A DNA stretch of 42,774 bases from Acidobacteriaceae bacterium. Its GTDB lineage: Bacteria > Acidobacteriota > Terriglobia > Terriglobales > Acidobacteriaceae. How positions within the stretch are numbered: position 1 is the first letter of the stretch; each line of letters starts with the position of its first letter. The stretch lies in NCBI GenBank assembly GCA_025449575.1, contig JANWJB010000066.1:1-42774 (forward strand), read 5' to 3'. The notes beneath the pieces were generated by a model. The model had not been told where the DNA came from and searched no databases. It was given only the letters and a program-made list of their open reading frames with translations. A program made the translations under genes and the position numbers. Shown here piece after piece: positions 66-15,000 of this stretch.

Positions 66-94
66 TTGACAATGCCAAAGAGCTTGAATAACAT
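66..94 (+). promoter_or_regulatory. Predicted sigma70-type promoter upstream of receptor relic/GH38
   Basis: A perfect TTGACA box at 66-71 is followed after 17 nt by TAACAT at 89-94, a two-mismatch -10 box. It lies 13 nt upstream of an inverted-repeat operator core and so copies the layout seen before the intact TonB receptor gene at 6271-6334. It would drive the relic and, by read-through, the GH38 and FG-GAP genes. This is predicted from sequence only. Confidence 0.55.
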
Positions 95-122: not shown

Positions 123-201
123 AAGTAGCCTGATCCGGCGCAACATTGAAATCAGAAGAAATTCCAACCGGGATTGTTCTTCTGGGAGGAGGCGGAGGCG
201 C

Positions 202-580
202 ATGAAAGACGCAGCGAGAGTTCATGGTGGAGGTTTGGCTAAGGAGTTTCGCAATTTTGCCGCAGCTTGGGTGCGAATTGCAGCCCCTATGCACGGGTTT
301 GTTGCTGGCATGCTGCTGCGCACGCGCCCAGAACACCGGGCAGGGCATGATCTCCGGAACCGTCGCCGATCCATTAGGCGCCGTAGTCACGAACGCCCCG
401 GTGAAAGTAACCAATATGGCAACCGGCGTGGCACAGAATTCCAGCACCAATTCGACCGGGTACTTCGAGGTGGATAACCTGAACCTCGGCGTTTACTCAA
501 TCTTAGTGACCGCTCCTGGATTCGCGCAGTTGCTGCACACCGGAATCACCCTCCAGGCGGATTCCGAAGCTCCATCGGGA
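202..580 (+). pseudogene. Truncated 5' relic of an Oar-like TonB-dependent receptor gene
   Basis: The frame beginning at 224 encodes a hydrophobic leader ending LLLACCCARAQ and then a carboxypeptidase-regulatory-like (CNA-B/Oar N-terminal) beta-sandwich: GMISGTVADPLGAVV, VKVTNMATG, GYFEVDNLNLGVYSI, APGF. This aligns by eye with the start of the intact receptor at 6428. Receptor similarity stops near 565-580 (after ITLQADSE), where about 1,100 residues of plug and barrel should follow, and the frame runs on into the GH38 gene. The best ribosome-binding sequence (GGAGGAGGCGGAGG, 186-199) precedes ATG 202, which is one base out of frame with the receptor frame, so an additional frameshift in the leader is likely. 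A chimeric protein starting at 224 is the alternative. Confidence 0.7.
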
Positions 581-622
581 TATTTTTCTCCACGCCATCT
601 TAGCGATCATTTCGGGGCATTC

Positions 623-3600
623 ATGCATAAGCTTTTGAAACAGTTCAAGAACGAGATTCCGCGATTCCTCCGGCTCGGCGCCACTACCGTCCTTATCGCC
701 TTGATCGGAACCTCCGTGGCCAGCGCACAATTTCCCTCCACCGGTCGCCACTTCGGCAGTCAAATCGACATCCCGGCGCAAGAGAAGGCGGCGCTCGATG
801 CGCTTTCGCCCCAGGCCCGAACCGTGATGCAAAAACTCACCGAGTTCGGCAGATTCACGGTGAGCGATTTTCTGTACCAGACGGGCGATGTACCGGACGG
901 CGCCGCGGTCGGTTTGAATGACTCCTCGTGGGAAAAAGGACAAGGCCCGATGACGCTTCCGGAGGACGCGACGTGGGTCCGCATTTGGGTTCAAGTTCCC
1001 AAGAACGTCAACGGATACGATCTGACCGGCGCAAAGATCGGATTCCGGCCATTCATGAGGGACGCGCAGGATATTTACGTAAATGGTCAGCCCATAGTGA
1101 GAATTCCAGGGGAGATACGGCCGACGATTCTTTTCGATTCCGCACAGCCGGGCGAAAAAGCGTTGGTGGCGATGAAGTTGGGCCAGAGCAAAATGCCCAA
1201 GAGAATGCGCGGCTTGTCGCTGACGATTGAGGTCGCTCCCGGCCGTCCCGACCCGGAGGTCCTGTACAAAGAATTTATGACCGCCGCGCTCTTGGTCCCA
1301 TCGGCGGCCGGCGCCGATTTGGCAACCGACCAGCGTGAGTTGAATCAGGCGATCGGCGATGTCGATTTGAAAGCGCTTGACGGGGCTGACCAGACGGCGT
1401 TCGATGCCTCGTTGCGCAAAGCGCATCAAGACCTCGATGTGCTCAAGCCCTTCCTGCGGTCGATCAATTTCAGCCTCAGCGGCAATTCCCATATTGATGC
1501 CGCCTGGCTTTGGCCTTGGACGGAAACGGTCGACGTAGTGCACCGCACCTTTGGCTCGGCCTTGAAGTTGATGAATGAGGCTCCCACATACACGTATTCG
1601 CAGTCCGCGTCACAGTACAACCAGTGGATGGCGGACAAGTATCCGAAGCTCAACGCGCAAATCAAGCAGCGGATTGAGGATGGCCGCTGGGAACTCGTGG
1701 GCGGAATGTGGATCGAGCCGGATCTGAATATGCCGACCGGAGAATCGTTGGTGCGCCAACTGCTCATCGGTCAGCGGACCCTTAAGAAGTTGTACGGAGT
1801 CACCACCCGGATCGGTTGGAATCCGGATTCTTTCGGCTATAACTGGCAGTTGCCGCAGATTTATAAAAAGTCTGGCGTCGATTACTTCGTGACGCAGAAG
1901 ATGGCGTGGAACGATACCAATCTGCTCCCGCTCAAGTTGTTCTGGTGGGAGGCGCCGGACGGCAGCAAGGTGCTTGCTTATTTCCCAGATGGCTATGGCA
2001 ACACCAACTTGGATCCCACCCGGCTGGCCAATGACATGGTGTTTTCCAGAACCGTGGACAAGGGAATGCGCAACATGATGGACCTGTACGGAGTCGGGGA
2101 TCACGGCGGCGGCCCGACCCTGGTGCTGATCAATCAAGGGACGCGATGGATGCAGCCGGATCGGACTGTTCCGAAGATGGAGTACGAGACCGCACAGACT
2201 TATTTCACCAACGTTGAGTCCACGATTGCAAAGAATTCTCCGGTCTGGAACTACGAGACGGCAGCTGCGGGAAATACCCAGCTTCCCACTCCTCCCGAGG
2301 GCAAGATCACCATTCCAACCTGGAAGGATGAACTTTACCTCGAGTTTCATCGGGGCACGTACACCACGCAGGCCCATCACAAGAAAAACATGCGCAACGC
2401 GGAAGAAGAGGTGATCGACGCGGAGAAGTGGTCATCGATGTCGTGGCTCTCGGGGAGTCCTTATCCCGGGAGCGAGCTGACAGGCGCATGGAAGAAGGTG
2501 CTTTTCAACCAATTCCACGATCTCGCCGCGGGCTCCGGCATCGCGGACATCTATAAGGACGCGCAAAAGGATTACAACGAGGTTCGGTTGACCACCAACG
2601 AAGTTACCTCAAACGCGCTGCGCACCATTCAGGTTTCTGTCGACACGCAGACGAGCGGAGACGCCGTGCCTGTGCTGGTCTTTAATTCTTTAGCGTGGCA
2701 GCGCACCGGGCTCGTCCAGACCGAAGTGGAAATGCATGCTCCCTCAGCGACGGGAGTTTCAGTTTACGATTCCCATGATCGCTTGCTTCCTTCCGAAGTG
2801 CTTTCGTCCGACAAAAAGACGGGCACCTATCACTTGCTGATCGAAGCGAGGAATATCCCGTCCGTAGGATATGAAGTGCTGCATGTCTTGCCAGGCGAGC
2901 GGCACTTTGCCACTGATCTTGCCGTGCATGGGCTCACCCTACAGAATGCTTTCCTGCGAGTAGTGGTCGACCCCACGACAGGATGCATCACCAGCTTGTA
3001 TGACAAGCAAGGGAAGTTTGAAACCCTTGCTGCTGGGGGCTGCGGAAATCAACTCGAAGCGTTTCACGATAACCCTAAGATGTTCGATGCCTGGAATATC
3101 CAGCCGGACTATGAGAAATTTCCTTTCGATCTCGGCCCGGTACGGAGTGTGAAGCTGATCGAATCCGGCCCCTTACGCGCGATCGTCGAAGTCAAGCACG
3201 CCACTGCAAAATCCACTTTCGTTCAGGACATCACCCTCTATGCTGGGATGGATCGCGTCGACGTAGCCAACACCATCGATTGGCATGAGCAGCACATCAT
3301 TTTGAAAGTCGCGTTCCCATTGTCCGCCTCGAGTCCGATGGCAGCCTATGAGATACCCTACGGCAATATTCAGCGGCCCACCACGCGGGATAATAGTTGG
3401 CAAGATGCGAAATTCGAGGTTTCCGCGATTCGCTGGGCAGATCTGGGGAATGCCCAGCATGGCTTCAGTCTCCTTAATAATTCAAAGTATGGCTATGACG
3501 CCAAGGGCAATGTGCTGCGTTTGACTTTATTGCGGAGCCCCACGGATCCGGATCCGGTTGCGGATCAAGGCGTGCATCACTTCGTGTATGCGCTTTATCC

Positions 3601-4015
3601 TCATGCGGGAACATGGAAGCAGGCTCTTACCGAACGCCAGGGGTGGGATTTTAACTATAAGCTCACTGCCCTCCAAGTTGAGCCCCACACCGGGACCCTG
3701 CCAGCCGAGCACTCATTTGTAGGAATCGACGCCGATGACGTGGTGCTGACCGCGATCAAGAAGGCCGAAGACAGCAACGCGCTCATCCTGCGCTTTTACG
3801 AGTGGGCAGGGAAAAACGCCAACGTGGCTATCCGGTTGCCGAAGGGAGTTACCTCGGCTACGCTCACCAATTTAATGGAAACGCCCGAGGGGTTGCCTTT
3901 GCAGGTTGTAGGTGAAGACAGAATCACGGTCCCCGCGACTCCCTACGACATCGTGACGGTGAGGGCATCCTATAATCCCCAACAGCGATCGAGCGCCCGT
4001 TATCTTGGATGGTAG
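623..4015 (+). CDS. Secreted GH38 alpha-mannosidase
   Basis: This is predicted to be a zinc-dependent retaining alpha-mannosidase of glycoside hydrolase family 38, removing mannose from oligosaccharides outside the cytoplasm. Starting at ATG 623 it is 1130 aa with a signal peptide (LLKQFKNEIPRFLRLG, hydrophobic stretch, SVASAQ). The family landmarks are present: HIDAAWLW (zinc ligands H290 and D292), WNPDSFGY with nucleophile D402, and NQFHD with zinc ligand H632. The C-terminal half is the usual GH38 beta-sandwich region. The frame is open upstream to 224 through the receptor relic. I chose 623 because a complete signal peptide begins there, although its ribosome-binding site is weak. The FG-GAP gene starts 40 nt downstream, so the two are probably co-transcribed. 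The family is secure; linkage specificity is not. Confidence 0.9.
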   Translation: MHKLLKQFKNEIPRFLRLGATTVLIALIGTSVASAQFPSTGRHFGSQIDIPAQEKAALDALSPQARTVMQKLTEFGRFTVSDFLYQTGDVPDGAAVGLNDSSWEKGQGPMTLPEDATWVRIWVQVPKNVNGYDLTGAKIGFRPFMRDAQDIYVNGQPIVRIPGEIRPTILFDSAQPGEKALVAMKLGQSKMPKRMRGLSLTIEVAPGRPDPEVLYKEFMTAALLVPSAAGADLATDQRELNQAIGDVDLKALDGADQTAFDASLRKAHQDLDVLKPFLRSINFSLSGNSHIDAAWLWPWTETVDVVHRTFGSALKLMNEAPTYTYSQSASQYNQWMADKYPKLNAQIKQRIEDGRWELVGGMWIEPDLNMPTGESLVRQLLIGQRTLKKLYGVTTRIGWNPDSFGYNWQLPQIYKKSGVDYFVTQKMAWNDTNLLPLKLFWWEAPDGSKVLAYFPDGYGNTNLDPTRLANDMVFSRTVDKGMRNMMDLYGVGDHGGGPTLVLINQGTRWMQPDRTVPKMEYETAQTYFTNVESTIAKNSPVWNYETAAAGNTQLPTPPEGKITIPTWKDELYLEFHRGTYTTQAHHKKNMRNAEEEVIDAEKWSSMSWLSGSPYPGSELTGAWKKVLFNQFHDLAAGSGIADIYKDAQKDYNEVRLTTNEVTSNALRTIQVSVDTQTSGDAVPVLVFNSLAWQRTGLVQTEVEMHAPSATGVSVYDSHDRLLPSEVLSSDKKTGTYHLLIEARNIPSVGYEVLHVLPGERHFATDLAVHGLTLQNAFLRVVVDPTTGCITSLYDKQGKFETLAAGGCGNQLEAFHDNPKMFDAWNIQPDYEKFPFDLGPVRSVKLIESGPLRAIVEVKHATAKSTFVQDITLYAGMDRVDVANTIDWHEQHIILKVAFPLSASSPMAAYEIPYGNIQRPTTRDNSWQDAKFEVSAIRWADLGNAQHGFSLLNNSKYGYDAKGNVLRLTLLRSPTDPDPVADQGVHHFVYALYPHAGTWKQALTERQGWDFNYKLTALQVEPHTGTLPAEHSFVGIDADDVVLTAIKKAEDSNALILRFYEWAGKNANVAIRLPKGVTSATLTNLMETPEGLPLQVVGEDRITVPATPYDIVTVRASYNPQQRSSARYLGW

Positions 4016-4055
4016 TAAAACCCATGCCGGCCGCGGGCGAGTCCCGGGAGGAAAT

Positions 4056-6032
4056 ATGTTGAGGAAACACATAGCGATCTTTGTTGCGCTCGCGCTTGCG
4101 GGAGCCGGTTTAGCCTTTGCCTCGGGTCCCGATTTTCGTCCCGATATAACCTTGACGGCCAAGAATCTTAAGGGATGGCATACGTTAGGCAATGCGGACT
4201 GGAAGGCGGAAAATGGTGAAATTGCCGGCAAGCCGGGTGCGGGAGGAGGTTGGCTGATCCTCGACAAGTCCTATCAGGACCTTCAATTTTACGCAGAATA
4301 CAAGTGTACGGGTGGTTGCGTGACCGGTCTGCTGATGCGCGCGGAGAAGACTTCGGACGGCGGCATGAAAGGCGTCTATGTCTCCCTCAGCGACACCACC
4401 GGCGGGATGGAGAATCTGGCAGGATACGATGTAACCATCGATGCGCAGGGGAAGATTGTTAATGCAACCCGGGAAGAACGTGGCGGCGGTTTCGAGCGCG
4501 TCATTTCGCCCTGGCCTCCCAAGCCCCAGCCCCAGAGTGCTCCGAGGGCCGGCAGATTTCGCAGGGAAGTACCTGCAGACTTACCGATCCACCGGCCCGA
4601 TACCAGCTACCGGCCGAATGAATGGAACGCCGTGGAGTTTTCCTTCGACGCCAATGTCGTCCGCGTCAATCTCAACGACGGCGGCCAGGGCGGCTCTCTG
4701 GCCGCCAACGGCTATGGTCCCATCGCGCTCTATATTGGAGGCGCCGGCGAGGTGGAATACAAGAACATCGCCATCCAGGACCTTAACTTTAAGACGCGCG
4801 AGCCAAGCTACACTTCCCCTGACTTTCGCAAGCAGACCCTAACCCCGTTTTACTATGGTTGGGGTCAAGCGGCAGCGGATTTCAATCACGATGGCCACCT
4901 GGATATCGCCTCTGGCCCGTTTGTCTATTACGGGCCCGATTTCAGGAGACGGAGCGAGATTTGGTGGGGAGAGGCTACGGACCCAACCAACGATTTCTCG
5001 ATGGATGCGCACGAGGAGTTTGCCGGAGCCTTCACCGGGCATCCCGAGTGGCCCGACCTCATCACGGTAAAGTTTGGAGGCGGCCACTGCGTCTACTTAT
5101 ATGTCAATCCCAGGGGAGAGAGCCGCACCTGGGACAAGTATCCCGTGGTCGATAACGTCTCCAGCGAGATATCGATCACGGCGGACATCGACGGACCCGG
5201 GAAGCCCGCGCTGGTCTTCACCGGCGATGGATACGTTCGCTATGCGGAGCCGGATCCAGCCGATCCCACCGCTCCATGGATCATCCACAACGTCTCGCAG
5301 CGAGGCTACGCGACTTCGCACGGGCTGGGCGCGGGCGATTTCAACGGCGACGGATTGATCGATATTGTGACGGCTTACGGATGGTGGGAACACCCGAAGC
5401 CGGGCAGCAGCGATCAGACTTGGAAGTATCATCCAGTGGCCTTTGGGCAGTATTCCCGCGGCTTTTACGGAGGCGCGGTCATGGGCGTCTATGACGTGAA
5501 CGGGGACGGCTTGAACGATGTGGTCACCTCGCTCGCCGCTCACGCCTGGGGTCTGGCATGGTTCGAACAGAAGCGCGACGCACAGGGCAATATCTCCTTC
5601 GTAAAGCACATGGTGATGGACGATTTCTCTACCAAGAACGCCGGCGGCGTGACGTTTTCAGAATTGCACGGCTCCGGGGTGGGCGACATCAATGGCGACG
5701 GCATTCCAGACTTTCTCGTGGGCAAGCGATGGTACTCCCATCTGGACAGCGGTATCGATCCCTATACCTTCGGCCCTCCTGTTCTTTATTGGTATGAAAC
5801 CGTTCGCGATCCGAAGGCTCCGGGTGGCGCCAGGCTGGTTCCGCATTTGATCGATAACGCCAGCGGCGTCGGGAACACCGTATTGGCGGTCGACCTCAAC
5901 CATGACGGCGCGATGGACGTTGTGACTTCCACGCGCTTTGGCGCCTTCATCTTCTGGAACAAGCTGCATGCGAAAGGGCACGCCCACGCCGCCAGGGGAA
6001 TCCGCCACTCTGCCGCTCGACGCGCTCCGTAG
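4056..6032 (+). CDS. Secreted DUF1080 (3-keto-disaccharide hydrolase-like) + FG-GAP/VCBS repeat protein
   Basis: The protein is 658 aa with a signal peptide (MLRKHIAIFVALALAGAGLAFASG). Residues about 25-235 form a concanavalin-like DUF1080 domain, a family that includes 3-keto-disaccharide hydrolases. The remainder is a beta-propeller of FG-GAP/VCBS repeats marked by calcium-loop motifs such as DFNHDGHLDIA, DFNGDGLIDIV, DVNGDGLNDVV, DINGDGIPDFL and DLNHDGAMDVV. ATG 4056 is preferred over the longer frame because GGGAGG at 4047-4052 is well placed. It lies 40 nt after the GH38 gene in the same probable transcript. It probably binds or processes glycans at the cell surface or in the periplasm. 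Its catalytic activity is not established by what I can see. Confidence 0.85.
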   Translation: MLRKHIAIFVALALAGAGLAFASGPDFRPDITLTAKNLKGWHTLGNADWKAENGEIAGKPGAGGGWLILDKSYQDLQFYAEYKCTGGCVTGLLMRAEKTSDGGMKGVYVSLSDTTGGMENLAGYDVTIDAQGKIVNATREERGGGFERVISPWPPKPQPQSAPRAGRFRREVPADLPIHRPDTSYRPNEWNAVEFSFDANVVRVNLNDGGQGGSLAANGYGPIALYIGGAGEVEYKNIAIQDLNFKTREPSYTSPDFRKQTLTPFYYGWGQAAADFNHDGHLDIASGPFVYYGPDFRRRSEIWWGEATDPTNDFSMDAHEEFAGAFTGHPEWPDLITVKFGGGHCVYLYVNPRGESRTWDKYPVVDNVSSEISITADIDGPGKPALVFTGDGYVRYAEPDPADPTAPWIIHNVSQRGYATSHGLGAGDFNGDGLIDIVTAYGWWEHPKPGSSDQTWKYHPVAFGQYSRGFYGGAVMGVYDVNGDGLNDVVTSLAAHAWGLAWFEQKRDAQGNISFVKHMVMDDFSTKNAGGVTFSELHGSGVGDINGDGIPDFLVGKRWYSHLDSGIDPYTFGPPVLYWYETVRDPKAPGGARLVPHLIDNASGVGNTVLAVDLNHDGAMDVVTSTRFGAFIFWNKLHAKGHAHAARGIRHSAARRAP

Positions 6033-6270: not shown

Positions 6271-6300
6271 TTGACAAGGCCCACAGTGCGTTATTAAAAT
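6271..6300 (+). promoter_or_regulatory. Strong predicted promoter for the TonB receptor gene
   Basis: A consensus TTGACA at 6271-6276 is followed after an 18-nt spacer by TAAAAT at 6295-6300, in a locally AT-rich stretch. The expected transcription start is about 6307, at the left edge of the large inverted-repeat operator, leaving a 5' leader of about 120 nt before ATG 6428. Confidence 0.7.
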
Positions 6301-6306
6301 CCCCTT

Positions 6307-6334
6307 AAATAAATGGGAACGGTCCCATTTATTT
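6307..6334. promoter_or_regulatory. Long perfect inverted-repeat operator before the TonB receptor
   Basis: Two perfect 12-bp arms, AAATAAATGGGA (6307-6318) and TCCCATTTATTT (6323-6334), flank the spacer ACGG. The core TGGGAACGGTCCCA matches the operator at 105-122 at 12 of 14 positions. It starts where transcription should start, so a bound repressor would block initiation. A LacI-type regulator responding to a sugar is the likely partner. A role as an mRNA hairpin is less likely, given the conserved core and promoter geometry. Confidence 0.75.
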
Positions 6335-6427: not shown

Positions 6428-9400
6428 ATGTTCAGGAACCGTCGCATTCTAGGCATTTTCGTCTGCTTCATATTCATGGTTGCGGCAGCAAAGTCTCAAA
6501 TTCGGTCAGGGACCATCACCGGCTCTGTGAGCGACTCGAGCGGAGCCGTGGTCACCGATGCCGACGTAACCGTGACGAACCTTGGAACGAATGTCTCGAA
6601 TACCACAAAAACAACCGGGGCAGGCGTATATACCGTGCCCTACCTGCAGACCGGGGACTATTCTGTCTCGATCTCGAAGGGGGGCTTCGAGACTTATACG
6701 GTGCAGGATGTTCATCTGGACCCTACCCAGACCGCGAGAGTGGACGCCAGTTTGCGGGTCGGCACCGCCTCGACATCGGTTCAGGTGACCGCTTCGGCAG
6801 CGCAGCTCCAAACCGAGAACGCCACCATCTCGGCCGGGGTCAACTCGCAAGTGATCGCGTCGATTCCGAATATCACGGAAAATCCGCTCTACTATGTGAC
6901 GCTGCAGGCTGGAGTCCAGCCCAGAAATGAAGCATCCACCAGCCAATCGCTCAATTCTTTTGGAATCGGCGTGGCCGGCCGCGCTCAATTTTCCGCCATC
7001 GGTGTGAACGGCGGCCGGGCGTTTACCAATAACATTCAACTCGATGGCTTGCCGATCATGGGCGACGGCTTCAATGAAGCGACGATTATTCCCAACGAAG
7101 AGGGCATCCAGGAAGTCCGGGTGATCAGCAATAACTTCAGTGCGCAATACGGCCACGGCCAATCCGTTTTAGAAATCACGACAAAGTCGGGAACGAATGA
7201 GTTTCACGGCCAAGCCTCCTATAGGATCAGGAATGAGGCGCTCGACGCAAACACCTGGGGAAACAACGAGCAGGGAATCCGGAGGCCGGCCTTCAAGGTC
7301 AACGACTTTGGCGGGGCACTGTCAGGCCCGATCCGCCGCAGTCACGTGTTCTTTGCTTCGAGCTATCACCTGCTCAGGTTTAACCAAGGACAGACGTATC
7401 TGGAAACGGTGCCGACCGATCTGGAGAGGGTTGGCAACTTCAGCCAGACTTACCAGCAGGATGCGAATGGACAGCCAGCTCCCGCCCAGTTATTCAACCC
7501 GTTCAGCGCCACGCAAATCGGCACCAATCTTTATCAACGCGCTCCCTATCCGAACGCGACCATACCCAATCCGGATCCCTTTGCCACATATATTTTGAGC
7601 CTATATCCCCAACCGAACCGGACGCCAAACGACATTTACAACACAGACAACTTCACCTCCACCGTGATCAACACAGTACGCCGGCAGACACTGAACAATC
7701 GCATCGACTACAAGCGGGGCAACCAGTCCTTTTATGCCAGCGGCGGCTTCGATTTCGGCACCATTCTGCAGCCGTATTACTGGGGCCAGTATGTGACCAA
7801 GGGCTTCAACGACTCTCCGACGACCACCAAAGACACGAACCTGTATGCGCAAATTGGGGACACGATCGTCATCAATCCGACCCTCGTTGTCGATGTCCGC
7901 TATGGAGCCACCAGAACCGATGCCATTGCTTTCGGCGGCAACCATTCGGGATTTACGCAATACGGCCAATTTGGCATTCCGGAAGCGACCCAGGCATTGT
8001 TCGCGGTTCAAGGGGCGGCTCCTGTGGTGAATCCGAGGATCGGGAGTGGCTCGGGAGGCGGCAGCAACTGGAGTGGGCTCTCCGGCGGCCAGTTCGCCAA
8101 TAAACAGGAGCATCAGATTTCGCATAGCGTGGTGGGCAGCCTCACAAAGATCCATGGAAATTGGACCTTCAAGGCAGGTTCGGAATACGACGTGGTGCTG
8201 GCCAACTATACCGATTTTGAAGAGGCTTCGACCAACATTGGGGGCTGCTGCGCGAACGATCCGGGAGGGAACTACACCTTCGAGTACAACACTGCGACTG
8301 GCGGCGTTGGGCCGGGCAACACCTCTCCGCTGCTCTCGGGCATCAATGGCGCAACCATGCTGGTTGGCGAGGGTGTGTGGTTTGTCCGGCCCGGCGCCAA
8401 TCTGAAACCGGCGTATGCGGCAAAGTACTTTGCTCTTTGGTCACAAAACGACTGGCAGGTCAACCCACGGCTGACTGTCAACCTTGGATTACGCTGGGAT
8501 CTGCAGCCCGGCCCAACAGAGCGTTTCAACCGCATCGCCGGGTATGACTTTACCAAGAAGAATGCCTTTGGCCAACAAGGGGCGATCGATTTTCCAGGAA
8601 CAGAAGGATACAGCCGCAATCTCTGGGACACGGAATATCACGATTTCCAGCCCCGCCTTGGCATTGCGTTTCAGGCAACGCCCCGCACCGTCGTGCGCGG
8701 CGGATACGGAATTACCTATCTGCCAAGCAATACGGGGTATTTCTCTAGCCCAAATGATTACGGCGAAGCGTCCTTCGCGCCGGGCAACCTTGCGCAACCC
8801 TATGGCACCAATCCGAACGGCGTCCCCACCTCCAGGTTTACGGACGCGGCGCCTCTCGTTGCGGCGACTGGTTCCAACCCCGCCGCGCCTCAGATCTATG
8901 GAGTTGGGGAGGCGTTCTTTGACCGGCACTTAAAAAATCAAGTCACGACGCAAGCCAATGTTTTTGTTGAGAATGCTTTTGGCTCCAAGGATCAATGGCT
9001 GTTTTCCATGGGTTGGAGCGGCGCATACTCCAATCACTTGACGACTCGCAACCTTCCTTTTGAGAACGTGCAGGATATATCGCCAACCACGCTTAGCCTG
9101 TGGAGAAGCCAATATATCGCCAGCAATGGAGCGACGAATCCGCAGAATAACCGGGTTCAGAATCCTTATCAGCCGGCAACCGGTTCACTCCTTCCTTTTC
9201 AGGGGAGTTTGAGCGCCAGTACCATTGCTCAATATATTCCCTTGCTTCCCTACCCAATGCTTTTTGGGGGCGGGTTGAACGGATCGACCGGCTTTGCCGA
9301 CTATAACTCCCTTCAAGTGCGCCTGAGTCACGCGTTTTCCTCCGGGCTTCATCTTGATCTGAATTACACCTGGAGTAAGGAACTGGATTTCGTGAGCAGT

Positions 9401-10186
9401 GGCATCGAGGATGGCCAGGGAGTCGATTATGGCGGGTCGGTCTCGAATCCGGATCTGATCAATAACCGCAGCAACAGAAACTATGGGACGGACGATCTGC
9501 CGCATCGTTTTGTGGCAACCGTGGTCTATATGTCGCCCTTCGGAGCGCACGGCAAGTATGCCTTGAGCAATCGTATCGCGCGCACCGCCTTCGGTGACTG
9601 GAGCGTTGGGTCGGTCATCACGGTCCAGAGCGGAATGCCTATCTATATCTCCGGATTAAATGGCGGCGTTACAGGACGCATCAACCGGGTTCCGGGTCAA
9701 CCTCTGGAGGTTCCGAAGGCCCTCCAGCACTGGTACAACGGGAGCACGCCGGTCACTTTGCCTTGCGGAAAAACCGTCACCCCGCAGAAGTTCACCTTTC
9801 TCAAATATAATTCCTGCGCCTTTGCCGGACCGACGGTGTCCCTTCCGAATGGGAAGATTGCGCCCGACATCTTCTGGAACGGAAACGCGAGGCAAACGGA
9901 CGGGGACATTCGCGGGCCAGGCCGCTCCAATATGGACTTCAGTCTCAGGAGGACTTTCCCGGTTACCGAACGCTACAGGCTGGAGATTGCCGCGGACGCT
10001 TCGAACCTGCTGAACCATGCCGAATTCAACGGCGCATATTCCGGAGGCCTCGGGAGTACCAACGTCGTGGACAACCCCAACGGCGGCTTCATTCCAGGAC
10101 AAGGCACGAGCAGCAGTTTCGGGACCAGGGGTGTAGGAACCTTTGACCCGCGCCAGATTACGATGTCTGCCCGGGTTGTCTTTTAG
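6428..10186 (+). CDS. Oar-like TonB-dependent outer-membrane receptor
   Basis: This 1252-aa protein belongs to the large acidobacterial Oar-like TonB-dependent transporter group. It has a signal peptide (residues 1-23, ending AAAKSQ), a carboxypeptidase-regulatory-like domain at about 27-105 (TITGSVSDSSGAVVTDADVTVTN, with the conserved GVYTVPYLQTGDYSVS), a plug at about 120-250 (IQLDGLPIMGDG and ITTKSGTNEFHGQ) and a long beta-barrel ending in an aromatic C-terminal strand (SARVVF). GGAGG at 6416-6420 sets the start. Its own promoter and operator lie at 6271-6334, and it sits between the secreted glycan enzymes and a sugar kinase plus permease. It is therefore likely to import an oligosaccharide across the outer membrane. 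The substrate is inferred from neighbours only. Confidence 0.9.
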   Translation: MFRNRRILGIFVCFIFMVAAAKSQIRSGTITGSVSDSSGAVVTDADVTVTNLGTNVSNTTKTTGAGVYTVPYLQTGDYSVSISKGGFETYTVQDVHLDPTQTARVDASLRVGTASTSVQVTASAAQLQTENATISAGVNSQVIASIPNITENPLYYVTLQAGVQPRNEASTSQSLNSFGIGVAGRAQFSAIGVNGGRAFTNNIQLDGLPIMGDGFNEATIIPNEEGIQEVRVISNNFSAQYGHGQSVLEITTKSGTNEFHGQASYRIRNEALDANTWGNNEQGIRRPAFKVNDFGGALSGPIRRSHVFFASSYHLLRFNQGQTYLETVPTDLERVGNFSQTYQQDANGQPAPAQLFNPFSATQIGTNLYQRAPYPNATIPNPDPFATYILSLYPQPNRTPNDIYNTDNFTSTVINTVRRQTLNNRIDYKRGNQSFYASGGFDFGTILQPYYWGQYVTKGFNDSPTTTKDTNLYAQIGDTIVINPTLVVDVRYGATRTDAIAFGGNHSGFTQYGQFGIPEATQALFAVQGAAPVVNPRIGSGSGGGSNWSGLSGGQFANKQEHQISHSVVGSLTKIHGNWTFKAGSEYDVVLANYTDFEEASTNIGGCCANDPGGNYTFEYNTATGGVGPGNTSPLLSGINGATMLVGEGVWFVRPGANLKPAYAAKYFALWSQNDWQVNPRLTVNLGLRWDLQPGPTERFNRIAGYDFTKKNAFGQQGAIDFPGTEGYSRNLWDTEYHDFQPRLGIAFQATPRTVVRGGYGITYLPSNTGYFSSPNDYGEASFAPGNLAQPYGTNPNGVPTSRFTDAAPLVAATGSNPAAPQIYGVGEAFFDRHLKNQVTTQANVFVENAFGSKDQWLFSMGWSGAYSNHLTTRNLPFENVQDISPTTLSLWRSQYIASNGATNPQNNRVQNPYQPATGSLLPFQGSLSASTIAQYIPLLPYPMLFGGGLNGSTGFADYNSLQVRLSHAFSSGLHLDLNYTWSKELDFVSSGIEDGQGVDYGGSVSNPDLINNRSNRNYGTDDLPHRFVATVVYMSPFGAHGKYALSNRIARTAFGDWSVGSVITVQSGMPIYISGLNGGVTGRINRVPGQPLEVPKALQHWYNGSTPVTLPCGKTVTPQKFTFLKYNSCAFAGPTVSLPNGKIAPDIFWNGNARQTDGDIRGPGRSNMDFSLRRTFPVTERYRLEIAADASNLLNHAEFNGAYSGGLGSTNVVDNPNGGFIPGQGTSSSFGTRGVGTFDPRQITMSARVVF

Positions 10187-10965
10187 GTACTTCTGAAACG
10201 GATGGCCGTTCACCAATCGGAGCTTTCTATGGCACGCTGGGAGCGTCACCATCCGTTTCTGCGGTTTCCGGTGCGGGCGCCGGTCACGAGGCGACATAGC
10301 TCGGAGATGAGTCTGTAAGGTCCGTTGCCACGCCAGCGCAGGCAGGCTGGCTGCGGCTGTCTGTTCGGTGGCCAATAACGATATCGATTTCGATACTCTA
10401 TGGCTGAGGCCAAGAATTGGCGTCGGGAGAAGGCGCTTCACGTGCTGTTCAAGGAAGCCGTTGGACCGCTCGGCGATGGCGAAGGTAATTCGGCGAGTCA
10501 GTCAGCAGATCCGGTGAGTAAATTAGGTTCTATTTTCCACGAGCGCAAGGCCTTCACCTGAAGCTGTCACGTCCATTGGTCATAGCGATGTTGCCTCGGC
10601 GGGGCATGTCGAGGCGGATCGCAGAACCATGATCCGGCTTCCGGTCACGGTTGGCTACTGCAGTTGGCGTTGCCAATGTGGTCAGGGTAGTGCCGGAAGG
10701 AATGTTCACGCCAGAAGCCCTTATAGACCCTGAAAAGCCGCCGATCGTGCTGTGATTCTGAGGAAGCTCTTCTCTGGACCGGTTCGACTCAAGAACGTTA
10801 CCATCAAAAACGTGCGGGCCGGCCTCAATGCCGCGTCATCTTAGAGCCAGGCCGGAATCGTCTTGGCATTGGTCCTACGGCGGCGTTATCGGACTTGCAC
10901 TAAACGGAGTTATGAAGAAGGGCGCCGCGGAGGTGGGTATCTGGGATGAGCAGGCTGGTGTTGGG
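10187..10965. other. Gene-poor stretch, probably decayed sequence
   Basis: No convincing gene lies between the receptor and the sugar kinase. After the inverted repeat at 10195-10259 there are only short broken open stretches. One on the minus strand reads FRVYKGFWREHSFRHYPD around 10680-10725 before meeting stops. One on the plus strand reads RKLFSGPVRLKNVTIKNVRAGL around 10760-10830 and ends at TAG. Both are rich in ordinary codons and could be gene fossils, but I do not recognise either. The last part may be a 5' extension of the kinase gene. Confidence 0.4.
10195..10259. repeat. Inverted repeat just after the TonB receptor gene
   Basis: Perfect 11-bp arms GAAACGGATGG (10195-10205) and CCATCCGTTTC (10249-10259) are separated by 43 nt, starting 9 nt after the stop codon. 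There is no T-tract, so it is not a classical intrinsic terminator. It could be an mRNA 3' stem protecting the receptor message, or the end of a vanished element. Confidence 0.4.
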
Positions 10966-11961
10966 ATGAGCGGTGCATTTTCGATAGGTGTTGACCTGGG
11001 TGGTACGAATCTGCGCGTGGCGGCCTACAGTGGCGGCACGGATTTTCTCGAGACCATCCTGCTGCCGACGCGGCTTGCGGCCGGCCGCGAACGGGTGGTG
11101 AGTGATATCTGCGAGGCCATCGACGCCTTGGCGCAAAGACACAACGGCCAGCGCAAATTGGCGGGGATCGGCATTGGAACGCCGGGGCCTTTGGAATTGC
11201 CGCGGGGAGTGCTGCGCAATCCTCCCAATCTGCCGGGTTGGGATGGCTTTCCCTTGCGCTCCGCGATCACGGCAAAACTCAATCGAGGGGTGCGGCTGGA
11301 AAGCGATGCGAACAACGCGGCGCTTGCCGAGCAATGCTTGGGCGCGGGCCTGCGGTACGGAGTGAGCACGCTGTGCATGCTCACGTTGGGCACCGGCGTG
11401 GGGAGCGGCCTGATCTTTCGCGGCCAGGTCTGGAACGGCGTCACGGGAATGGGCGGGGAAGCCGGACACATGATCGTACAGGATCAAGGAGGAGAGCCCT
11501 GCGGCTGCGGAGGCAGCGGCTGTCTGGAGCAATATGCCTCCGCCAAAGCGGTTCTGCGCATGGCGCGGGAGCGCCTAGGAGAGGAGGCGCCGGCAAGCGC
11601 GCATGACGTGGCTTTGCTAGCGCGTGCTGGCGATGCGAGAGCCTGCGGCATATTCGACGCGGTGGGGCATTCGCTGGCTGTCGCGCTGACCGGCCTGATC
11701 AATACCCTCAACATGCCGCTTTATTTGTTGGGCGGCGGACTCTGCGACGCGTGGGACCTCTTCTCTCCCGAGATGTTCCGCGAGCTGCATCTTCGCAGCT
11801 ACATCTACCGTCTTACGGAGCCTTCAGAGCTCGAGCCGGAGCGGCTGGAGGAGAAGAAAACCTACATTCTGAGAGCACAGCTCGGACCAGCCGCGGGGCT
11901 GCTCGGTGCATGTTTACTTGGCTTCCAAGAATCCTCCAGCATGGGGAGAGTGGGCATTTGA
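10966..11961 (+). CDS. ROK-family sugar kinase (glucokinase-like)
   Basis: The protein is a 331-aa cytoplasmic ATP-dependent sugar kinase of the ROK family. It has the N-terminal phosphate loop VDLGGTNLRVA, the sugar-binding GIGTPGPL, the catalytic-Asp motif ESDANNAALAE (D114), the adenosine-site LTLGTGVGSGL and the full ROK zinc signature GEAGHMIVQ...CGCGGSGCLEQYAS. The frame is open back to 10828 with possible starts at 10828 and 10912. I chose ATG 10966 because family members start a few residues before the phosphate loop, but no start has a strong ribosome-binding site. It is coupled to the downstream permease. It would phosphorylate the imported hexose; glucose is most likely, with mannose or fructose possible from sequence alone. 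Confidence 0.88.
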   Translation: MSGAFSIGVDLGGTNLRVAAYSGGTDFLETILLPTRLAAGRERVVSDICEAIDALAQRHNGQRKLAGIGIGTPGPLELPRGVLRNPPNLPGWDGFPLRSAITAKLNRGVRLESDANNAALAEQCLGAGLRYGVSTLCMLTLGTGVGSGLIFRGQVWNGVTGMGGEAGHMIVQDQGGEPCGCGGSGCLEQYASAKAVLRMARERLGEEAPASAHDVALLARAGDARACGIFDAVGHSLAVALTGLINTLNMPLYLLGGGLCDAWDLFSPEMFRELHLRSYIYRLTEPSELEPERLEEKKTYILRAQLGPAAGLLGACLLGFQESSSMGRVGI

Positions 11962-13301
11962 CTGTGAATAAGTACATCGTTCGTGGCGCTCTCGTCGGCG
12001 CCTTGGGTGGCCTGCTCTTCGGCTTTGATACCGCTGTCATCTCCGGCGCCACTGCTTCTCTTACGCGGGCCTATGGGCTAACAGCATCGCAACTTGGCCT
12101 GACGGTATCGATCGCATTGTTAGGCACGATCGTCGGAGCGCTGGGTTCGGGTGTCTTGGGGCAGCGTTACGGAGCGCGGGAGGCGCTCCGGCTTACCGCA
12201 TTGCTCTATCTGCTCTCCGCCCTCGGATGCGCCTTTGCGCCGAGCTGGGGCTTTCTGCTTGCGTCGCGCCTACTGGGTGGCCTTGGCATCGGAGGCTCCT
12301 CCGTGCTCGGCCCGGTATACATTACGGAGATCGCGCCGCCCCGGCTGCGCGGACGCCTGGTAGGTACGTTTCAGATCAACATCGTCGTCGGCATCTTGCT
12401 GGCTTATCTCTCGAATTTTCTGATTGGCCTGCTGCATCTGGGACTCGCGGAGTGGCGATGGGAGTTGGGCGTTGCGGCACTGCCCGCCGCGATCTTTCTG
12501 GGATTGCTTTTCATCATTCCGCACAGCGCGCGGTGGCTCGCATTGCAGGGGCGTTTGGAGGAGGCGCGGGATGTCCTCGCTTTGATGGGCACGCCCAACC
12601 CCCAAGCTGAACTGGACGAGATCCGCGCAGCGCTGCACGAGCAGGTTAACGTCAAAGGCGCCGCGCTTTTCGAATTTCGCAAGGGCGGCCTGCGCTATGG
12701 CAAGCCGATCTTTCTCGCTATCGCCATTGCCGCCTTCAACCAGCTCACCGGCATCAACGCTGTCCTTTATTATTTGAACGATATCTTTGCGGCGGCGGGT
12801 TTCAGCCAGCTCTCCGGCAGTCTGCAAGCCGTCGCCATCGGCGCCATGAATCTCTTGGCCACTCTGGTTGGGATGGCTCTAATCGATCGTCTCGGCCGCA
12901 AGATGCTTCTCTTGGTCGGCTCGGTGGGCACCGCTATTTGCCTGTCTTGCGTCGCCGCGATCTTTTTGCTTAAGCAGCACCAAGATCTGCTAGTGTGGGC
13001 GCTCGTGGCTTACATTGCGTTCTTTGCCGTCTCGCAGGGAGCGGTCATCTGGGTGTACATCAGCGAGGTGTTTCCCACCAGGGTGCGCGGCAAAGGCCAA
13101 AGCCTTGGCGCCGGCACACACTGGACCATGAACGCGATCATCTCCGGCATCTTTCCCGTAGTCGCCGCTCGTTCCGGCGCTTATCCATTCATCTTCTTCG
13201 CGGCCATGATGGTGCTGCAATTTTTTGTGGTCTTGTTCTTCTTCCCGGAGACGAAACAGGTTTCGCTGGAAGAACTACAGCGCAAGCTGCAGATCGACTA
13301 G
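11958..13301 (+). CDS. Sugar-porter MFS transporter
   Basis: This inner-membrane sugar:H+ symporter belongs to the MFS sugar-porter family (XylE/GalP type), about 447 aa with 12 predicted membrane segments. Family marks are GGLLFGFDTAVISGA in TM1, the cytoplasmic R-G/R motif region RLLGGLGIG...EIAPPRLRGRLVG after TM4, QLTGINAVLYY in TM7 and FFPETK at the C-terminus. A longer frame opens at 11751 but overlaps the kinase gene. The mature family start lies around LTVNKYIVRG. TTG 11958 has GGAG at 11945-11948 with good spacing and overlaps the kinase stop as TTGA, a translational-coupling arrangement; GTG 11964 is the alternative. It supplies monosaccharide to the adjacent kinase. Confidence 0.9.
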   Translation: MTVNKYIVRGALVGALGGLLFGFDTAVISGATASLTRAYGLTASQLGLTVSIALLGTIVGALGSGVLGQRYGAREALRLTALLYLLSALGCAFAPSWGFLLASRLLGGLGIGGSSVLGPVYITEIAPPRLRGRLVGTFQINIVVGILLAYLSNFLIGLLHLGLAEWRWELGVAALPAAIFLGLLFIIPHSARWLALQGRLEEARDVLALMGTPNPQAELDEIRAALHEQVNVKGAALFEFRKGGLRYGKPIFLAIAIAAFNQLTGINAVLYYLNDIFAAAGFSQLSGSLQAVAIGAMNLLATLVGMALIDRLGRKMLLLVGSVGTAICLSCVAAIFLLKQHQDLLVWALVAYIAFFAVSQGAVIWVYISEVFPTRVRGKGQSLGAGTHWTMNAIISGIFPVVAARSGAYPFIFFAAMMVLQFFVVLFFFPETKQVSLEELQRKLQID

Positions 13302-14736: not shown

Positions 14737-15000
14737 TTAAGCCAAGCGGAGCGGCCTTTGGTTCCGAGCGAAGGTTCCGGTTAGGTCGAACTGGAAGTCG
14801 CGGCTGCCGCTGTTGCTGATGGCGCTGCCCACGGTTCCGAAGCTGCCGCGATTAACGTTGACTCCGATGCCGCTAAACGTGACTTTGTTGGTCACGTCTC
14901 CGGCAGTCCACGGCGAAGATGAATCTCACCTCCGGCGTGATATTGAAGCTGCGCCGCAGTTTCGGAGAGGGGTCGCCGGCGTGCTTGACCGGGGATGGAA
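14737..15000 (-). pseudogene. C-terminal relic of a TonB-dependent receptor, frameshifted
   Basis: On the minus strand the segment RSFNITPEVRFIFAVDC (about 14905-14965) is the typical penultimate strand of acidobacterial Oar-like receptors. The expected continuation, NKVTFSGIGVNVNRGSFGTV and SGSRDFQF, occurs directly downstream but in another frame, ending at TAA 14737-14739. One indel near 14900-14905 separates the two. Nothing recognisable remains upstream of about 15000, so this is a 3' remnant. It is not a duplicate of the tail of the intact receptor at 10186, which differs. Confidence 0.65.

Follow-up and report, generated by a model that had tools for sequence, protein, structure and literature searches.

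Background

The capture of an upstream promoter and first codons by a downstream gene is a well precedented event, both in experiments (PMC4395868) and in genome comparisons (PMC12803068). In the wrinkly-spreader fusions of P. fluorescens, deletions joined an upstream promoter and 5' codons to a downstream enzyme ORF and raised transcription 23- and 219-fold; some of the joins were in frame, and for several of them the benefit lay in transcription (PMC4395868). Deletion-born fusions have also been described from comparisons of many genomes per species, in which two gene fragments became fused through loss of the DNA between them (Kaul et al. 2026 preprint, PMC12803068).

The window that we analysed is the whole of a contig (42,774 bases) from a draft Acidobacteriaceae genome of 3.03 Mb, 83% complete and in 233 contigs. 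Near its start, the 5' end of an Oar-type TonB receptor gene is joined to a gene for a GH38 alpha-mannosidase, an anatomy that resembles both of the systems above. Whereas the P. fluorescens fusions arose as new mutations in the laboratory, from an ancestor that was known, this one is found in nature and its ancestor is missing, and in contrast to the many genomes per species of Kaul et al., one genome of the species is at hand. A further difference from P. fluorescens, and the novel element of this case, lies in the regulatory setting: donor and recipient apparently belong to one mannoside regulon.

Two other described systems are relevant to the parts of the locus. The enzyme shares its catalytic module with the Ams1-type GH38 mannosidases, including the conserved HIDxAW and PDxFGY motifs; unlike them it is bacterial, carries a signal peptide and is presumably exported. 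As in the LacI-family sugar regulons, a palindromic operator lies just 3' of a -10 box, in the neighbourhood of hydrolase, ROK kinase, transporter and receptor genes, although a search of the assembled genome (83% complete) gave no member of the LacI clade associated with this operator, the best match having 35% identity.

We consider it probable that the GH38 gene underwent promoter capture inside a mannoside-use locus, that the receptor 5' end is a relic that came with the promoter, and that the enzyme is translated from ATG 623. The locus would then be a natural candidate for regulatory rewiring by sequence loss, from a phylum that has received little study. It also suggests that joins of this kind may be tolerated if one repressor already controls both donor and recipient.

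A receptor remnant in frame with a complete mannosidase gene

An earlier note on this DNA had described a receptor promoter, operator and leader that run without a stop codon into a complete GH38 gene with its own signal peptide, and each of these parts was found. The ORF at 224-4015 starts at ATG 224, is open throughout and encodes 1263 amino acids, with about 117 codons of Oar-type TonB receptor (CarboxypepD_reg) in frame with a complete GH38 alpha-mannosidase. The features of the locus and of the cluster that follows it are these:

66-94, plus strand: sigma-70-type promoter TTGACA-17-TAACAT of the receptor remnant
106-121, no strand: LacI-type palindromic operator ATGGGAACCTTCCCAT, just 3' of the promoter
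184-477, plus strand: strong Shine-Dalgarno sequence (GGGAGGAGGCGG) with ATG 202, which probably was the receptor's first start codon but is out of frame today
323-574, plus strand: receptor relic, CarboxypepD_reg minus its last beta-strand (6 of 7 strands)
575-622, plus strand: junction, with no receptor homology, operator or promoter and with non-coding codon use
623-4015, plus strand: GH38 alpha-mannosidase, its own signal peptide included; ATG 623 is the probable true start
4056-6032, plus strand: next cluster gene, 3-keto-disaccharide hydrolase-like domain (KDH) and FG-GAP repeats (Pfam)
6271-6328, plus strand: promoter (6271-6300) and second operator (ATGGGAACGGTCCCAT, 6313-6328) of the intact Oar gene
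6428-10186, plus strand: intact Oar-type TonB receptor (PF13620 and PF25183)
10828-11961, plus strand: ROK-family sugar kinase; the ROK genes that adjoin LacI and the operator in relatives are 54-57% identical to it
11751-13301, plus strand: sugar/MFS transporter

In the Pfam search, CarboxypepD_reg (PF13620) covers amino acids 43-115 of the ORF at an E-value of 3e-15, and of 8.5e-17 for the match to profile positions 2-74 of 82, and the N, middle, C and C2 domains of GH38 (PF01074, PF09261, PF07748 and PF17677) are all above cut-off. The same search found no outer-membrane barrel within the 1263 amino acids, and the receptor part is a remnant, not a receptor.

The stretch from 623 to 4015 is predicted to encode a presumably exported GH38 alpha-mannosidase, which aligns with a solved Ams1-type GH38 over most of its length (6lz1, 1e-115); the zinc and nucleophile motifs GNSHIDAAWLWP and WNPDSFGYNWQLPQ also align with Ams1. 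ATG 623, amino acid 134 of the ORF, opens MHKLLKQFKNEIPRFLRLGATTVLIALIGTSVASAQ, signal-peptide-like as judged by eye, with a putative cleavage site near amino acid 169. The hydrophobic leader terminates at SAQ, the same as the signal peptides of the orthologues. The starts of the orthologues and a weak Shine-Dalgarno sequence (CGGGGC) point to ATG 623 as the probable true start.

The receptor domain is cut at the junction

When the relic is aligned with its closest receptor relatives (L024 and L098, 47-55% identical), homology reaches GITLQADSEA, at about amino acid 117 or nucleotide 574, and there is none beyond. In the frame of ATG 224, the coding score from codon use is +33.7 bits for 323-575, -3.8 bits for 575-622 and +8.7 bits for 623-755. 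By structure prediction, the domain of the nearest intact receptor has seven strands (pLDDT 93), whereas the fused domain has six, the seventh being absent and the chain disordered from residue 80 on, including the residues past the junction; the receptor piece has therefore been cut inside its domain. What the earlier note called the first domain of the receptor is thus present above cut-off but truncated, its last strand missing.

An independent promoter at 580-620 had been named in the earlier note as an argument against capture. We found no consensus promoter in 560-625, no promoter or operator in 480-640 and no notable RNA fold at the junction, so that none of these hidden elements was retained as a candidate. 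A terminator-like stem at 561-581 was rejected as being at chance level (1 found, 1.0 expected).

The continuous frame itself is hardly meaningful. Sixteen codons of the junction's composition stay open 57% of the time, which with one frame in three gives a probability of about 0.19, or roughly one time in five, for an accidental in-frame link, and upstream frames are at least as open in 21 of 43 GH38 orthologues. The open link between receptor piece and GH38 is not significant on its own.

These results bear on the second of the two possibilities between which the earlier note made no choice, a genuine chimera with an added beta-sandwich. A functional protein of up to 1263 amino acids, with a receptor-type sandwich ahead of the mannosidase, would agree with the single open frame, with a CarboxypepD_reg domain that still exceeds its Pfam cut-off and with a possible start at TTG 257 behind AAGGAG, yet we regard it as improbable: the sandwich has lost its last strand, the two domains would be separated by a hydrophobic signal sequence inside the protein, the linking stretch is non-coding by codon use, chance alone gives an in-frame link about one time in five, and none of the 43 relatives whose starts were read has the fusion, so that the extra domain is neither complete nor conserved.

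Translation starts and probable decay of the receptor leader

The strongest Shine-Dalgarno sequence is that of ATG 202 (-12.5 kcal/mol), followed by those of TTG 257 (-7.7), ATG 623 (-5.0) and ATG 224 (-3.9). ATG 202 lies +1 out of the GH38 frame, and its own ORF, 202-477, stops at 477. Codon use in 263-322 favours the 202 frame over the 224 frame by about 9 bits. The original receptor probably began at ATG 202, and the leader looks as if a one-base shift near 310-325 had hit it later, a reading drawn solely from codon use and the ribosome-binding site that supports decay and is not proof of it. The earlier note had taken a best ribosome-binding site feeding an out-of-frame start as a hint of decay in the receptor part, and these results agree with it.

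Several points count against capture. The frame of GH38 runs through the relic without meeting a stop; TTG 257, which lies in the 224 frame, could start a read-through product from its AAGGAG; a LacI of the matching clade was missing from the incomplete genome; and the contig begins close by. We have considered whether the receptor fragment was kept by selection, either because the start at TTG 257 gives a mannosidase with a receptor-derived sandwich in front, or because a translated 202-477 leader tunes the output of enzyme. We think this quite doubtful; if true, it would mean that a new domain architecture or a leader control had been born from rearrangement within one regulon.

Operators, a probable promoter capture and a candidate mannoside regulon

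The promoter at 66-94 has 10 of 12 consensus matches, and two such sites occur in the region against 0.4 in shuffles. In the whole 3.03-Mb genome, the operator core TGGGAACNNTCCCA occurs only at 107 and 6314, before the relic and before the cluster's intact Oar gene, and the reversed control pattern has no site at all. The 16-base form of the operator has only 8 sites in 200 family genomes, two of them in this cluster. This recurrence is significant; because a looser consensus also gives a chance site at 14996 (13/14), the argument rests on the strict TGGGAACNNTCCCA counts. Both operators follow a TTGACA-type promoter and lie about 80-100 bases before an Oar start, and the intact gene at 6428 shares the entire layout of promoter, operator, leader of about 100 bases, strong Shine-Dalgarno sequence and start.

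The GH38 orthologues often have operators of the same class. A TGGRAACGTTYCCA-like site (at least 12/14) lies within about 170 bases upstream in 14 of 43, against 0.24 in shuffles, and in one genome of the same genus (L055) the orthologue adjoins a LacI gene and has a similar LacI-type palindrome just upstream. The GH38 gene of the window has no TGGRAACGTTYCCA-like operator of its own in 480-640. With the native operator lost and the receptor's equivalent upstream, the swap appears to have joined two members of one mannoside regulon. The earlier note had the capture placing the enzyme under the receptor's regulation, and this needs correction: since GH38 in relatives has a LacI-type operator of this class already, regulation probably stayed the same in kind and only the promoter changed.

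The operators of the orthologues could also be taken to mean that promoter and operator here are GH38's own, and that an insertion placed the receptor fragment between these elements and GH38. We consider this very improbable, as the layout from promoter to start codon matches that of the intact Oar gene, and the orthologue operators mostly lie within about 170 bases of the GH38 start, where here the distance is about 500.

Judged from its sequence, the arrangement is one that works like promoter capture: a donor promoter and 5' codons stand directly upstream of GH38, and the gene's own promoter is gone. In the capture that we propose, a rearrangement would have joined the receptor promoter, LacI-type operator, leader and first 117 or so codons to the DNA that begins 48 bases upstream of the GH38 start; the simplest such event is a deletion that removed the remainder of the Oar gene and GH38's native promoter. 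Transcription of the enzyme gene would come from the promoter at 66-94, a LacI-type regulator would repress at 106-121 until released by a mannoside signal, and ribosomes would make the enzyme, with its own signal peptide, from ATG 623. The receptor piece would be a decaying 5' leader, and the continuous frame incidental. Of the promoter-capture deletion suggested in the earlier note, the capture is upheld by the donor promoter and operator, the missing native operator, the truncated domain, the non-coding junction, the out-of-frame leader and the lack of in-frame relatives; the deletion is what we infer from this anatomy and is not demonstrated, because the arrangement that preceded it is not seen in any close relative.

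The same operator motif recurs at ROK or LacI-ROK genes of four other genomes (G119, G041, G037 and G073), and is found at a GH47 mannosidase gene in G119 and at an Oar gene, 52 bases downstream, in G041. In the form TGGRAWCGTTYCCA it stands at base 1501 of L159, L163, L164, L166, L168, L169 and L171, marking GH38, LacI-ROK, GH47 and Oar genes. Several mannoside genes thus share a predicted operator upstream, and the genes so marked make up a candidate alpha-mannoside regulon of the Acidobacteriaceae. The survey yields a testable regulon for the family, with GH38, GH47, ROK kinase, LacI and Oar receptor as its members.

Comparison with relatives and genomic setting

Of 150 genomes of the family, 79 have a GH38 relative of this type. 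The nearest are only about 61% identical, and we found among them no ancestral or sister locus in which both genes are complete. Relatives sharing the in-frame arrangement with conserved relic codons would, as the earlier note observed, favour a functional fusion; a receptor domain in frame was seen at none of the 43 GH38 loci whose upstream side and starts were read. An Oar gene does stand directly upstream of GH38 in two other loci, complete in L088 and truncated in L057. At the latter, from another genus (3574-5713, with GH38 at 5905), the Oar gene is cut after barrel positions 1-193 of 838 and then runs out of frame into GNVWYNSQTANGTWSGW-type repeats of another protein, which may be a separate case of receptor truncation beside GH38.

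The KDH-Oar pair is conserved in L152, of another genus, and stands there without GH38; GH38 and the relic therefore look like additions to the locus. This suggests that, besides changing its promoter, GH38 also moved next to the KDH-Oar pair. The idea that the relic is a local duplicate of the cluster's intact Oar gene was rejected, the two being only 37-39% identical.

We also considered an assembly artefact near the contig end, with sequence skipped or mis-joined where an intact Oar gene lay upstream of GH38. The assembly is a fragmented and incomplete draft, just 575 bases separate the junction from the contig start, and no second copy of the DNA at 1-720 was found in the genome. A random chimera, however, would not be expected to bring here the genome's only other copy of an operator found 6.2 kb downstream, and there is no repeated DNA for 1-720 in the genome that could drive a mis-join. 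We regard an artefact as unlikely, though it is the least improbable of the alternatives to capture.

The genome holds a second GH38 gene (C212, L075), 55% identical to the first, which has a different LacI gene adjoining and no recognisable operator of this class. At E-values of at most 1e-60, the KDH and FG-GAP gene at 4056-6032 is matched in just 9 of 150 genomes of the family, with several copies where it is present.
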